From positions 1 through 28,580 of the IMG/VR virus record IMGVR_UViG_3300025889_000704: 28,580 nt of DNA; one strand, given 5' to 3'. The notes below the pieces were generated by a model, which was given only the letters and a program-made list of their open reading frames with translations, was not told the DNA's origin and did not search any database. This DNA comes from a virus. Below, piece by piece: positions 18,629 to 23,627 of this stretch. Within the stretch, counting starts at the first letter, position 1; the number at the start of each line of letters is the position of its first letter. Position numbers and translations under genes: made by a program.

Positions 18629-18929
18629 CAGTTTTATCGTCTCCTTGATTCTCCTGTAATCTATTTACTTCGTTTATTTCATAGTCCAGAAGTCCGATAT
18701 ATCGACACAGATACCATTGAGCCTTCTTCAAGTCTGTTCGCATAGCCTCACGTCTTTCCAGGTCTCCTAAGTCCTTATGCTTGTATTCAAACCTATACAA
18801 ATATTTATGTACATTGCCAAGTAAGAACCCTTTGAATCCTTTGTACCCAACTCTATCTCTGATATTGTCGATACTCTCTTGACCTTCCTGTTGATAATGT
18901 TTTGGATTTACTACGTTTAGATCAGCCAT
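18597..18929 (-). CDS. DUF3310 family protein
   Basis: A 110-residue protein with VVNPKHYQQEGQESIDNI (6-23), FLLGNVHKYLYRF (35-47) and DLKKAQWYLCRYI (66-78), the complete DUF3310 signature ("NP.HY......E.id.i.......f..Gn..KYl.R...K....dl.KA..Yl"). The family occurs in very many phages and in the C-terminal part of T7 gp1.7, and is sometimes called nucleotide-kinase-like, but its biochemistry is not established generally. The C-terminus here is an acidic tail. It overlaps its upstream neighbour by one base. Confidence 0.88.
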   Translation of the reverse strand: MADLNVVNPKHYQQEGQESIDNIRDRVGYKGFKGFLLGNVHKYLYRFEYKHKDLGDLERREAMRTDLKKAQWYLCRYIGLLDYEINEVNRLQENQGDDKTDGDAPSDVEI

Positions 18930-19234
18930 TATACCTCCTTAATTGTTATGTTATATATAGCTTCAGTTAATTTCTTTTTGATCCGATATACTGAGGTCTT
19001 TACCCCTTTAACGTCCTCGACAACCTGTTTACCATCTTCGTTATACATAAAGTCAGCGATGTAGGTGCATATTTTCTTTCCATTTACTTGAATAGGAAAC
19101 TTTGGCTGTAACACCAGGTCTGATATTCTCTGTTCCTGTAATAGGAACTTCAGCTCCTTGTATCGCAGTGCTTCTTTCTTTGAGGCAAACATGATTCCAT
19201 CTACCTCGGTTCTAATTGCTCTGTATTTATTCAC
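18929..19234 (-). CDS. DUF1064 nuclease (PD-(D/E)XK, RusA-like role)
   Basis: A 101-residue protein matching DUF1064: GIMFASKKEALRYKELKFL (13-31), ISDLVLQPKFPI (37-48), YIADFMY (58-64), VVEDVKG (71-77), and a basic end with KKKLTEAIY. D61 with D74-V-K76 form a PD-(D/E)XK nuclease core; E21 in the first helix may complete it. Family members are small phage nucleases thought to process branched DNA or to act in packaging. Placement near replication and annealing genes supports branched-DNA processing. Confidence 0.85.
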   Translation of the reverse strand: MNKYRAIRTEVDGIMFASKKEALRYKELKFLLQEQRISDLVLQPKFPIQVNGKKICTYIADFMYNEDGKQVVEDVKGVKTSVYRIKKKLTEAIYNITIKEV

Positions 19235-20236: not shown

Positions 20237-20473
20237 ATGAGAAATCTTTTTAAATTAATAAAGTCTGATGAACCCACACTTACAGATGATGAGTATGTGT
20301 ATATAAAAGATAAATCTGTAACAATTCAAATTTGTGGCAATGGTGTTTACTGTGTTAACAAGTGGGTTAAAACTGAACAGACAATGTACCATTCTCCATT
20401 TATGTCACTTAAAGATGCAATGAAACTTGTTATTAACAAAAAATATGACGGAGTAGATAAATGTGGAATATAG
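20237..20473 (+). CDS. Hypothetical early protein
   Basis: A 78-residue protein starting at an ATG with GAGGTAAATA upstream. It has a small beta-rich centre (EYVYIKDKSVTIQICGNGVYCV) and a helical end with MSLKDAMKLVINKKYDG, a pattern like short phage proteins containing a two-strand plus helix unit. It overlaps the serine recombinase by 13 bases, so the two are co-expressed. Family and function not recognised. Confidence 0.6.
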   Translation: MRNLFKLIKSDEPTLTDDEYVYIKDKSVTIQICGNGVYCVNKWVKTEQTMYHSPFMSLKDAMKLVINKKYDGVDKCGI

Positions 20474-21168
20474 CAGCAATTAGATTGAGTGACAGTGCAG
20501 CTGAAAAAGCTAGGCAGATGTTCATACTCAAAGATTATTTTAAGAGACATAATATTACTGACGTTCAATATGTTGAGGATATAGGTACTTCTGGTGGAGT
20601 GCCCATCCTTGATAGACCAAACTTAGGATCAGTTTTAAAGAAAGCTCCCAAAGGAACTACAGTTTATGTTTCTGATATCTCAAGGCTTGGTCGTCTCGAC
20701 TACGACATGATGAAGTTTAGAGATGATAAAAATTTTAAACTAGTGGTGTGTAATAATCCAGAGATCACTGAAGATAAAAATAGAATTATGTTTGGTATGA
20801 ATGCAATTATGTCTGACCAATATCGTAGAGATTTATCAGTGAAACAAAAAGAGAAATGCCAAGAGATGCAAGCCTCGATAGCTGACAAAGGATATTACAT
20901 TACTAAATCTACAAATCGCAAAATGACTAAGCTCGGTGTTCATGGGTTCATGGATAAGGCGAGAGCCAAGGCTAGTCAATCCAGAAAAGAGAAGGCTAAC
21001 TTTTACATTGGTCAGATCAGAATACATCTGGAGGATGCACAGAATCATTCCGAGTCTTTACTCGGCATGGCAAACTATCTTAATGCAAGAAGTGTAAAGA
21101 CATCTAGAAATAGTTCATGGTCTGCTTCTACTGTAAAACGTGCATTAGATAGACTTCAAACACTTTAA
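20461..21168 (+). CDS. Serine recombinase (resolvase/invertase family)
   Basis: A 235-residue serine recombinase. Ser10 in IRLSDSAA is the expected nucleophile, followed by the EDIGTSG loop (39-45), DRPNLGSVL (51-59) and VSDISRLGR (70-78), the conserved arginine motif. After a long helix (about 100-140) comes GVHGFMDKARAKAS and a C-terminal DNA-binding part with SWSASTVKRALDRL. It is much shorter than large serine integrases (450 or more) but longer than a bare resolvase. It could resolve genome multimers, invert a segment, or integrate. No att or res site was identified in the window. It is co-transcribed with nuclease and annealing genes. Confidence 0.88.
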   Translation: MWNIAAIRLSDSAAEKARQMFILKDYFKRHNITDVQYVEDIGTSGGVPILDRPNLGSVLKKAPKGTTVYVSDISRLGRLDYDMMKFRDDKNFKLVVCNNPEITEDKNRIMFGMNAIMSDQYRRDLSVKQKEKCQEMQASIADKGYYITKSTNRKMTKLGVHGFMDKARAKASQSRKEKANFYIGQIRIHLEDAQNHSESLLGMANYLNARSVKTSRNSSWSASTVKRALDRLQTL

Positions 21169-21181
21169 CAAAGGAGATATT

Positions 21182-21376
21182 ATGAGTGTTTATTTAAATA
21201 AACTAAGACGATTCGTAAGGAAGTATTACGATTTTTTTCCAATCATATTCTATGCAGCCGTAATCATGTTTATGTTATATGCATTTATGATTGTCGGTTG
21301 TGCCTTGGACGATGCTTGTTACGAGGTTCACATGAGATCAATAGAGGAGGTTCCGTATGTCTACCCCCAAGAATAA
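21182..21376 (+). CDS. Small single-pass membrane protein
   Basis: A 64-residue protein with a strong AAGGAGATATT ribosome site. A basic N-terminus (LNKLRRFVRKYYD) precedes one membrane helix, about 20-41 (FPIIFYAAVIMFMLYAFMIV), and then a short acidic outer tail with two Cys. By the positive-inside rule the N-terminus is cytoplasmic. It overlaps the first part of the nuclease gene by 20 bases. Possibly an early membrane-acting peptide; no family recognised. Confidence 0.6.
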   Translation: MSVYLNKLRRFVRKYYDFFPIIFYAAVIMFMLYAFMIVGCALDDACYEVHMRSIEEVPYVYPQE

Positions 21377-21626
21377 ATATAGCAGAGACGGATTCGAGAT
21401 CGGAGCTTCTAAGATCGGTGTAGTCGTTCTAGGTAAGAATGATTTCGGCATGACCAGAGAAGGTCTTCGTCAAAGATTCGTTGACATCAGAGAGAATCCG
21501 GATGTTATCCAGATGGATACTACTAGATTCCAAGATGCAGCGGATCGAGGGAACTACCTTGAGGACGGATTGCTCCAATGGGTAGCAGATAAACTTGATA
21601 AAATGGCGGAGGAACGTGATGAATAA
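21357..21626 (+). CDS. YqaJ-type exonuclease, N-terminal part (separate gene)
   Basis: An 89-residue protein covering the first third of a YqaJ/lambda-exonuclease-type nuclease. FEIGASKIGVVVLGKND (13-29) matches the opening GGSdI-like motif, and DAADRGNYLEDGLLQWVADKL (60-80) contains the conserved G-x3-E (G65, E69), the first active-site acid. It stops where the family normally continues, at 21626. AGGAGG lies six bases before its ATG. The rest of the nuclease is the next gene, in the +1 frame, starting eight bases before this stop. Confidence 0.75.
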   Translation: MSTPKNKYSRDGFEIGASKIGVVVLGKNDFGMTREGLRQRFVDIRENPDVIQMDTTRFQDAADRGNYLEDGLLQWVADKLDKMAEERDE

Positions 21627-22320
21627 ATGGGTATCATTAACTAAACCGACTAAGGCCTATCGTCTGGAGAAGTATCGTATGGCAGCTTCCTTGGATGGAG
21701 TCCTCGAAGTTCATGGCGGAGCTATCCCTTTTGAAGATCCTCAGACAGGCGAGGTCGTTATGCTTGAGGGCAAGGGATGTTGTGAGATCAAGACTCAAGG
21801 ATACAATGATGGTCCTCCCACATACGAGAATATACTACAAGTCCAGGCTCAGATGTTATGCTCTGGATTTAAGTGGGCGATAATCGGCAAGCTCGGTCCA
21901 CGTCTCAAGTTCGAGATGTTCGTCTTTAAAGGTGACGCTGATTTACAAAACACTATCATAGAATATGTCCAAGACTTCTGGAACAAGGTCGATAATAATC
22001 TCGCCTACGATGATGACCAAGAGCCAGAGAAAAGTTTTGTCGATTGGACGGAACATAAAACTGCAAATAAGTTGACCGATTTAGTCAACAATCATGAGTA
22101 TGCTATTGAGCAGATCAAGGAATGGACGGATAAAAAGAATGTCATGAGAGATTCAATTATATCTATGTTGCAATCCGAGAATGTGAAGTACGTTACTATT
22201 AATAATAAAAAGGTAGCAGTAGATACTGTAATTAGAAAAGCTACACCAGAGAAAGTCGTAGCAGCTAAACCAGAAACTAGTCATACCAAATTAACAATTA
22301 AGGAGATCAAGGATGAATGA
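21619..22320 (+). CDS. YqaJ-type exonuclease, catalytic C-terminal part
   Basis: A 233-residue protein from the ATG at 21619, which has GGAGG six bases upstream. AYRLEKYRMAASLDG (13-27) supplies active-site D26, and GCCEIKT (53-59) supplies the E56-x-K58 pair. YENILQVQAQMLCSGF (69-84) is the usual Q-rich helix. These are the second to fourth active-site residues of YqaJ nucleases. The first (E69) is on the preceding gene's product. The enzyme should degrade one strand of double-stranded DNA to feed the annealing protein encoded next. Whether it works as two chains, via frameshifting or not at all is open. Confidence 0.85.
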   Translation: MNKWVSLTKPTKAYRLEKYRMAASLDGVLEVHGGAIPFEDPQTGEVVMLEGKGCCEIKTQGYNDGPPTYENILQVQAQMLCSGFKWAIIGKLGPRLKFEMFVFKGDADLQNTIIEYVQDFWNKVDNNLAYDDDQEPEKSFVDWTEHKTANKLTDLVNNHEYAIEQIKEWTDKKNVMRDSIISMLQSENVKYVTINNKKVAVDTVIRKATPEKVVAAKPETSHTKLTIKEIKDE

Positions 22321-23041
22321 ACTTAAAAAAATTATGGAGGAGATATCCTCACTTAATAAAACACATGGTGTAACTCAGAAAGGTGGTAAGAAATATACTC
22401 AAGTAGTTCACCGAGTAGAAGTGTTTAGAAGGCACGTTGGTACTACCTACGGCATACAAACTTTTTTAAAAGTTGACGATGGTAAAAGAGTTGTAGTCAA
22501 AGCTATAATAAAAAGTCTAGAAGGAGACATTATTGGGTCTGGATATGCAGAAGAATTTCGAGGAGCAGGATATGTTAACAAAACTTCTGCCTTAGAAAAT
22601 GCCGAGACAAGTGCAATCGGTAGAGCTTTATCAAGTTTGGGTCTGTCTGGAGGTGAATATGCCTCGGCTAATGAGATGGACACTGCTCAACGCAATGAAC
22701 AAGCCTCTAATTTGCCTGTCAGTGAGCAGAAAGGGGGTAAGTCGACTCGTACTAACCAAGATTTAAAAGAAGCTATCCAGAGGTCTGAGAATGCTAAATA
22801 CAGACTATCGTATCCTGGTAACAAGTCTGAGCACTTTGATGACATAGAAACTGCTATTCAGTCTATAAATAAATGGTTATGGACAGTAGAAACCTACGAA
22901 GAGAAACCTAAAGACCAAAGGCTTATGGCAATAGGAGCTTTCTTTGAGCAGAATAAACCGATCATGGATATCATGAGAAAAGAAAAACCAGATGATCTTG
23001 CGGAAGTAGATGCGAGGGTGAAGAGGTTTGAAGATGACTAA
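22313..23041 (+). CDS. ERF-like single-strand annealing protein
   Basis: A 242-residue protein. YGIQTFLKVDDGKRVVVKA (46-64), GSGYAEEFRGAGYVNKTSAL (76-95) and the highly conserved ENAETSAIGRALSSLGLSGG lie in the first half, typical of ERF/Sak-type phage annealing proteins. The C-terminal half is a charged tail. It would pair complementary strands exposed by the YqaJ-type nuclease encoded immediately upstream, forming a two-component recombination system like lambda Exo-Beta. The start overlaps the nuclease stop by eight bases. Confidence 0.87.
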   Translation: MNELKKIMEEISSLNKTHGVTQKGGKKYTQVVHRVEVFRRHVGTTYGIQTFLKVDDGKRVVVKAIIKSLEGDIIGSGYAEEFRGAGYVNKTSALENAETSAIGRALSSLGLSGGEYASANEMDTAQRNEQASNLPVSEQKGGKSTRTNQDLKEAIQRSENAKYRLSYPGNKSEHFDDIETAIQSINKWLWTVETYEEKPKDQRLMAIGAFFEQNKPIMDIMRKEKPDDLAEVDARVKRFEDD

Positions 23042-23237
23042 GCCATTAAAAGAAAGTGTCTATGACTTTATTATATCGTATGTATCGAGCAATGGATTTC
23101 CTCCTACACAAAGTGAGATCGCTGATAGCTTGAATCATAATACACGTTCAGCAGTTCAGTTGGCTTTATCTAATCTTGAAAAAGAAAATAGAATATCGAA
23201 GGTCAAAGGACTAGCTCGATCCATCCGAGTTATCTAA
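23034..23237 (+). CDS. Stand-alone LexA-type winged-helix protein
   Basis: A 67-residue protein with the LexA N-terminal domain only: KESVYDFIISYVSSNGFPPT, SEIADSLNHNTRSAVQLALSNLEKENRIS, and ARSIRVI (61-67), corresponding to LexA residues about 1-70. The protease domain and cleavage site are absent. It starts at ATG 23034 (GAGG upstream), not the TTG at 23028, and overlaps the annealing gene end by eight bases. It could regulate phage genes or compete at host SOS boxes. Last gene of the rightward operon. Confidence 0.82.
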   Translation: MTKPLKESVYDFIISYVSSNGFPPTQSEIADSLNHNTRSAVQLALSNLEKENRISKVKGLARSIRVI

Positions 23238-23627
23238 CTCACTTATAGCCTTTTCCCATGTGGAGGAGGCTATACTTTTATCCTCAAATATTTCTACCTT
23301 TAATCGTCTAGTAACACTTGTCTGATGTATTACAGGTATAAAGTATACGTTCTCATGAGGAATAGATACGAGTGCTATTATATCGCAATGCTCTCTGGTG
23401 TACGGAACTTTCTTCTTACTTGAGTAACTCGTAGTCCACATAAAATGTGTAGGTCTGGAACTATCTGGAACACTCCGCGCTTTGACTTGCACTCTATATA
23501 ATTTACCTTTGGTGGTCGCAATGATATCTGATCCGTTGAGTGGACTGATAGTATTCTCGATACCCATCTGAGTTAGTCTAAGAGCTGCGATCAGTTCACC
23601 GATTCGCCCTGTAGATACTTCAGACAT
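23211..23627 (-). CDS. PD-(D/E)XK endonuclease
   Basis: A 138-residue nuclease-fold protein. RIGELIAALRLTQMG gives helix 1 with E11, SPLNGSDIIA gives D34, and LYRVQVKA gives the Q47-V-K49 motif. This matches the PD-(D/E)XK family often annotated as group I intron endonuclease-like (PF11645-type) or resolvase-like. The C-terminal 50 residues are acidic and less conserved. It converges with the LexA-like gene, sharing 27 bases of 3' ends. It is the last gene of the leftward lysis block and may cut or protect DNA; substrate unknown. Confidence 0.75.
   Translation of the reverse strand: MSEVSTGRIGELIAALRLTQMGIENTISPLNGSDIIATTKGKLYRVQVKARSVPDSSRPTHFMWTTSYSSKKKVPYTREHCDIIALVSIPHENVYFIPVIHQTSVTRRLKVEIFEDKSIASSTWEKAISELDNSDGSS
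23244..23279 (+). terminator. Intrinsic terminator of the rightward operon
   Basis: TATAGCC (23244-23250) pairs with GGCTATA (23268-23274), and the stem continues inward (TTTTCC with GGAGGA, two G-U pairs) to about 13 pairs around CATGT, followed by CTTTTA. It stands just after the last rightward gene. It lies inside the 3' end of the converging nuclease gene; the opposite strand has no U-tract, so it should act in one direction only. Confidence 0.65.

Follow-up and report, generated by a model that had tools for sequence, protein, structure and literature searches.

The overlapping genes at 21357 to 22320 of this virus record (the window, i.e., the whole stretch of 28,580 bases that was analysed) raise the question of whether a phage recombination nuclease can be built from two separately translated chains, with its active site divided between them. 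A preliminary description of the locus had proposed exactly such a division in a YqaJ-type nuclease; the coordinates that it gave, the 8-base overlap, and the GGAGG six bases before the ATG at 21619 all hold on re-reading. The relevant features are as follows.

21182 to 21376, plus strand: small membrane-protein-like ORF, overlapping the start of ORF1 by 20 bases.
21357 to 21626, plus strand: ORF1, N-terminal chain of 89 aa, N-terminal helices of the lambda-exonuclease fold, with G65-x3-E69.
21561 to 21563, plus strand: E69 codon (chain 1), in RGNYLE; aligned with lambda exonuclease E85.
21608 to 21612, plus strand: GGAGG ribosome-binding site of ORF2, six bases 5' of its ATG; read directly.
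21619 to 21626, plus strand: ORF1/ORF2 stop/start overlap, 8 bases, ATGAATAA.
21619 to 22320, plus strand: ORF2, C-terminal chain of 233 aa, beta-sheet core (D26, E56-x-K58, Q74) plus a C-terminal tail.
21694 to 21696, plus strand: D26 codon (chain 2), in ASLDG; aligned with lambda exonuclease D119.
21784 to 21792, plus strand: E56-x-K58 codons (chain 2; E56 at 21784 to 21786, K58 at 21790 to 21792), in CEIK; aligned with lambda E129 and K131.
22313 to 23041, plus strand: single-strand annealing protein (mgM101/Rad52-like core), probably a partner; ATG within an 8-base overlap with the end of ORF2 (ATGAATGA).

We infer, with a probability of roughly 0.8, that the two ORFs encode the 5'-3' exonuclease (RecE/YqaJ, lambda-exonuclease fold) of a phage two-component recombinase, and that it is produced in two chains by overlapping genes that would be coupled in translation and would assemble into an active enzyme. 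Ribosomes would finish ORF1 at its TAA, and translation of ORF2 would begin at the overlapping ATG downstream of GGAGG, either by restart or by independent initiation; the helical N-terminal piece, carrying E69, and the sheet-forming C-terminal piece, carrying D26, E56, and K58, would then assemble without a peptide bond, and the resulting two-chain nuclease would act together with the product of the annealing gene that follows. The assembled pair is predicted to have Mg-dependent 5'-3' exonuclease activity.

The family assignment is carried mainly by ORF2, which matches phrog_434 (RecE-like exonuclease; E 8e-17) from position 138 of the 372 profile positions onward. When the two ORFs are read as joined, the match extends back into ORF1 and improves to E 3e-21 (77 bits vs. 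62 unjoined); ORF1 alone had no family match in the profile search. All 18 aligned members match phrog_434, and half of them (9/18; best E 5e-5) match Pfam PF09588, to which the window proteins themselves gave no match. A PDB sequence search returned a weak LHK-Exo match (E 0.13). Because hhalign against lambda exonuclease was weak (E 0.006), with the D119 region and a later helix alone properly placed, residue equivalences were taken instead from a multiple alignment that includes intermediates. That alignment, which also contains one-piece relatives, places ORF2 Q74 opposite lambda exonuclease Q157. The G-x3-E, D, E-x-K, and Q residues are invariant among the aligned relatives (18/18 sequences). 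Over their whole length, ORF1 and ORF2 together can be aligned with one-piece RecE/YqaJ exonucleases, as expected if the two together equal one ordinary nuclease, and profile and residue alignment bear out the proposed division of active-site residues over two coupled genes. The counterpart of ORF1 E69 in lambda exonuclease, E85, presumably has a role in the active site. In the same enzyme, D119, E129, and L130 are the ligands of one metal, and K131 activates the attacking water (PMC6199318). Searches of a phage collection with ORF1 and ORF2 (tblastn) gave no match at default limits and, at loose limits, recovered Methylophilales phage MEP301 (MW452941) and distant one-piece exonucleases; a scan of genome contigs found no relative.

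For structure prediction, the window chains were joined artificially into a single chain by a one-base skip (CGTG=R), for modelling only. The AlphaFold2 model of this chain (mean pLDDT 76, pTM 0.60) has the same topology and order of elements as that of the natural one-piece protein of contig L020 (mean pLDDT 62, pTM 0.59), and for both the top Foldseek matches in the PDB were lambda exonuclease and LHK-Exo (3slp, 3syy, 6m9k, and 1avq; E 4e-8 and 9e-7). The break falls in the loop that separates the helix at 70-85 from the strand at 91-95. Residues 51-69, which include E69, are poorly modelled (pLDDT below 50 in the joined window model), so that what can be taken from the model is the fold and where the break lies, not the geometry of a closed site. 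Since the loop at the break already varies in length among one-piece relatives, a break after the glutamate helix and before the first core strand is probably well tolerated.

The location of D26, E56, and K58, all on ORF2, would also be consistent with ORF2 alone being the nuclease and ORF1 having turned into a distinct regulator or inhibitor with a lasting resemblance to the N-terminal piece, and separate genes would permit separate dosage. However, ORF1 keeps the residues that are invariant in one-piece relatives, including G-x3-E, and in the model of the joined chain it makes up a portion of the nuclease fold; we therefore regard a role for ORF1 outside the enzyme as unlikely.

Relatives of the two chains were found in further contigs (49-64% identity to ORF1 or 48-59% to ORF2). 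Two divergent lineages (~55% identical), comprising three contigs, have the break where the window has it, with the same MNKWVS at the second start:

L019: split into 91 + 231 aa; same ATGAATAA overlap; AAGGAGG before the ATG.
L036/L037: split into 88 + 231 aa; stop, two bases, then ATG; AGAGGAG before the ATG in L036.

One chain runs through the junction in ~30 other contigs (L020-L035, L038, L070-L074, L076-L078, L084, L088, L091, L092, and L101), with a length of 316-329 aa where complete; L075 and L090, whose sequences start close to the junction, are assigned to neither form. MEP301 gp05 and the two distant phage exonucleases examined are likewise single chains. A scan with the MNKWVS DNA pattern matched 33 contigs, 20 of which lack this nuclease, and revealed no further split lineage; among L040-L069, the nuclease is encoded by L067 and nine contigs of the window group alone.

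These lineages bear on a programmed +1 ribosomal frameshift, raised in the preliminary description, which would fuse ORF1 and ORF2 into a full-length nuclease and render the two chains only apparent. Such a shift is physically possible, in that the ORF2 frame is free of stops 5' of its ATG, back to 21595, and the joined reading gives a protein of normal length. However, the step from the ORF1 frame to the ORF2 frame is +1 in the window group and L019 and -1 in L036/L037, which makes a conserved frameshift unlikely; no known slippery motif was seen by eye at the overlap, and what the splits have in common is the ribosome site and ATG, together with ATGAATAA(A/G)TGGGTATC. On the differing frame relation, we reject frameshifting, to which we accord little probability, and stop/start-coupled translation of two chains that would assemble into one exonuclease appears to be the simplest account.

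The identical split is present in ten other marine viral contigs (one lacking the ORF1 start and one the ORF2 end, at contig ends). Between these contigs and the window, ORF1 shows 9 synonymous and 0 non-synonymous differences, and ORF2 shows 44 synonymous and 2 non-synonymous; this excess of synonymous differences indicates that selection acts strongly to keep both ORFs as reading frames. Because it is kept in ten contigs and in two divergent lineages broken at the same place, the split is, on this comparative evidence, more than chance. The possibility that all close relatives are single-chain holds only in part: at >97% DNA identity all are split, whereas at 50-65% protein identity most are single, yet these include the two additional split lineages.

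The same counts weigh on the view that the gene is broken and decaying, its recombination role lost or passed to another gene. Decay can begin with the splitting of a gene, and a second nuclease-like gene lies nearby; against this, 53 synonymous changes are accompanied by hardly any amino-acid change in either ORF, the catalytic residues and the ribosome site are all kept, and the split recurs across divergent lineages, so that decay is rejected as very improbable. A sequencing or assembly error in an ordinary one-piece gene can be dismissed almost entirely: although most relatives at 50-65% identity are one-piece, the junction bases are the same in ten contigs that differ elsewhere by synonymous changes, which excludes the base error that the preliminary description had thought to check for, and L019 and L036/L037 carry the same split start.

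In a maximum-likelihood tree built without the junction columns, the splits fall in three places (3 changes), and a single split clade is rejected (AU p = 9e-5); the root of the tree is unsure because the outgroup branch is very long. On either side of the junction, the DNA of L019 is mostly 80-100% identical to that of one-piece kin such as L029 and L021; across the junction itself, identity is ~56-63% to these kin vs. 77-90% to L036, and L036 is ~56-60% identical to its own nearest kin across the same tract. The ribosome site and the 17 bases ATGAATAA(A/G)TGGGTATC at the second start are common to the splits, including the window group, vs. ~60% identity overall. In this tract, L019 and L036 resemble each other and not their closest relatives, which is the pattern of a small exchanged piece; recombination thus seems to have carried the junction between lineages. 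One origin followed by transfer probably accounts for this pattern, although repeated independent splitting may have occurred instead. Because the distant relatives are single, the direction of change is likely to have been from one chain to two.

An internal start may predate the split. In the L071 group, all seven complete one-piece copies (7/7) have an in-frame ATG with a ribosome-site-like stretch at codon 88-89 (codon 89 in L071), as does L029 (codon 88), and this is the place where the split forms start their second chain. The idea is only a lead, since the L071 group has a second ATG with a ribosome-site-like stretch at codon 132, and such sites can thus occur without known meaning. Taken further, and tentatively, the split could be a selected state instead of a tolerated accident: a short junction cassette (ribosome site plus MNKWVS start) would recombine among marine phage exonuclease genes and convert a one-piece nuclease into a form in which the active site is completed only on association of the two coupled chains; a one-piece gene with an internal start that made the C-terminal piece may have come first. 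We consider this broader proposal doubtful at present.

Exonuclease-annealase pairs are known from lambda (PMC7496540). In the window, ORF2 and the annealing gene are connected by the same kind of 8-base stop/start overlap as ORF1 and ORF2, and an annealing protein also lies next to the exonuclease in L021, L029, and MEP301 (ERF in each). The annealing proteins behind this exonuclease (window 22313-23041; L019 2417-3202; L021 2722-3498; L029 5944-6720) differ in their cores (mgM101-like, ERF, and one without a Pfam or PHROG match) and have in common a homologous C-terminal stretch of ~110 aa; this stretch is 60% identical between L029 and L019, and 26% identical between the window and L029 (E 3e-11). 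Upstream, at 20461-21168, is a protein with a serine-resolvase N-terminal domain (PF00239, E 2e-14), in which the large recombinase domain is weakly represented at best; a serine-resolvase-like gene is likewise found upstream of the YqaJ gene in MEP301. A small PD-(D/E)XK protein (PF11645, E 1e-7) is encoded on the minus strand at 23211-23627, converging on the recombination genes, and a gene resembling it also lies behind the recombination genes of L071. Also on the minus strand, at 18929-19234, is a DUF1064 protein of the phage Holliday-junction-resolvase family phrog_190 (E 4e-33).

Compared with the lambda exonuclease/RecE/YqaJ family (PF09588; phrog_434; SynExo two-component recombinase), the window enzyme has the same fold, catalytic residues, length, and adjoining annealing-protein gene; it differs in being two chains, with the glutamate of G-x3-E apart from D, E, and K. 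The YqaJ protein of MEP301, gp05, occupies the same place in its genome, with the resolvase-like gene upstream and the annealing gene downstream, and the MEP301 terminase is 65% identical to that of the window; gp05, however, is a single chain (338 aa) and shares 27% identity with ORF2. We found no report of a split YqaJ/lambda-type exonuclease in the open-licence literature, and to our knowledge no lambda-type exonuclease is known with an active site divided between two chains. Split working phage enzymes are already known; a split in the lambda-type nuclease family is apparently unreported.

Lambda-type exonucleases are much-used tools in genome engineering, and a recombination nuclease that is already split in nature would provide a switchable tool without further design. 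This group of marine viruses, whose hosts are bacteria, would amount to a natural experiment in which an enzyme was cut in two and still kept by evolution. Split and one-piece versions are up to ~95% identical in their C-terminal part, and the existence of such near-identical versions means that the cost and use of splitting an enzyme could be measured directly with natural proteins.

The nearest precedents are the split phage enzymes NrdA of Aeh1, gp43A/gp43B of Aeromonas phage 25, and the T4 topoisomerase, in which a homing endonuclease or an untranslated insert has been associated with the break, and of which NrdA and gp43 have been reported to form a working enzyme from two pieces (PMC2988022). 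No homing endonuclease or insert was found at the break in the window, L019, or L036. Like these precedents, the window ORFs are two pieces that equal one ordinary enzyme; unlike them, the ORFs overlap by 8 bases (window and L019) or lie two bases apart (L036), and they belong to a different enzyme family.
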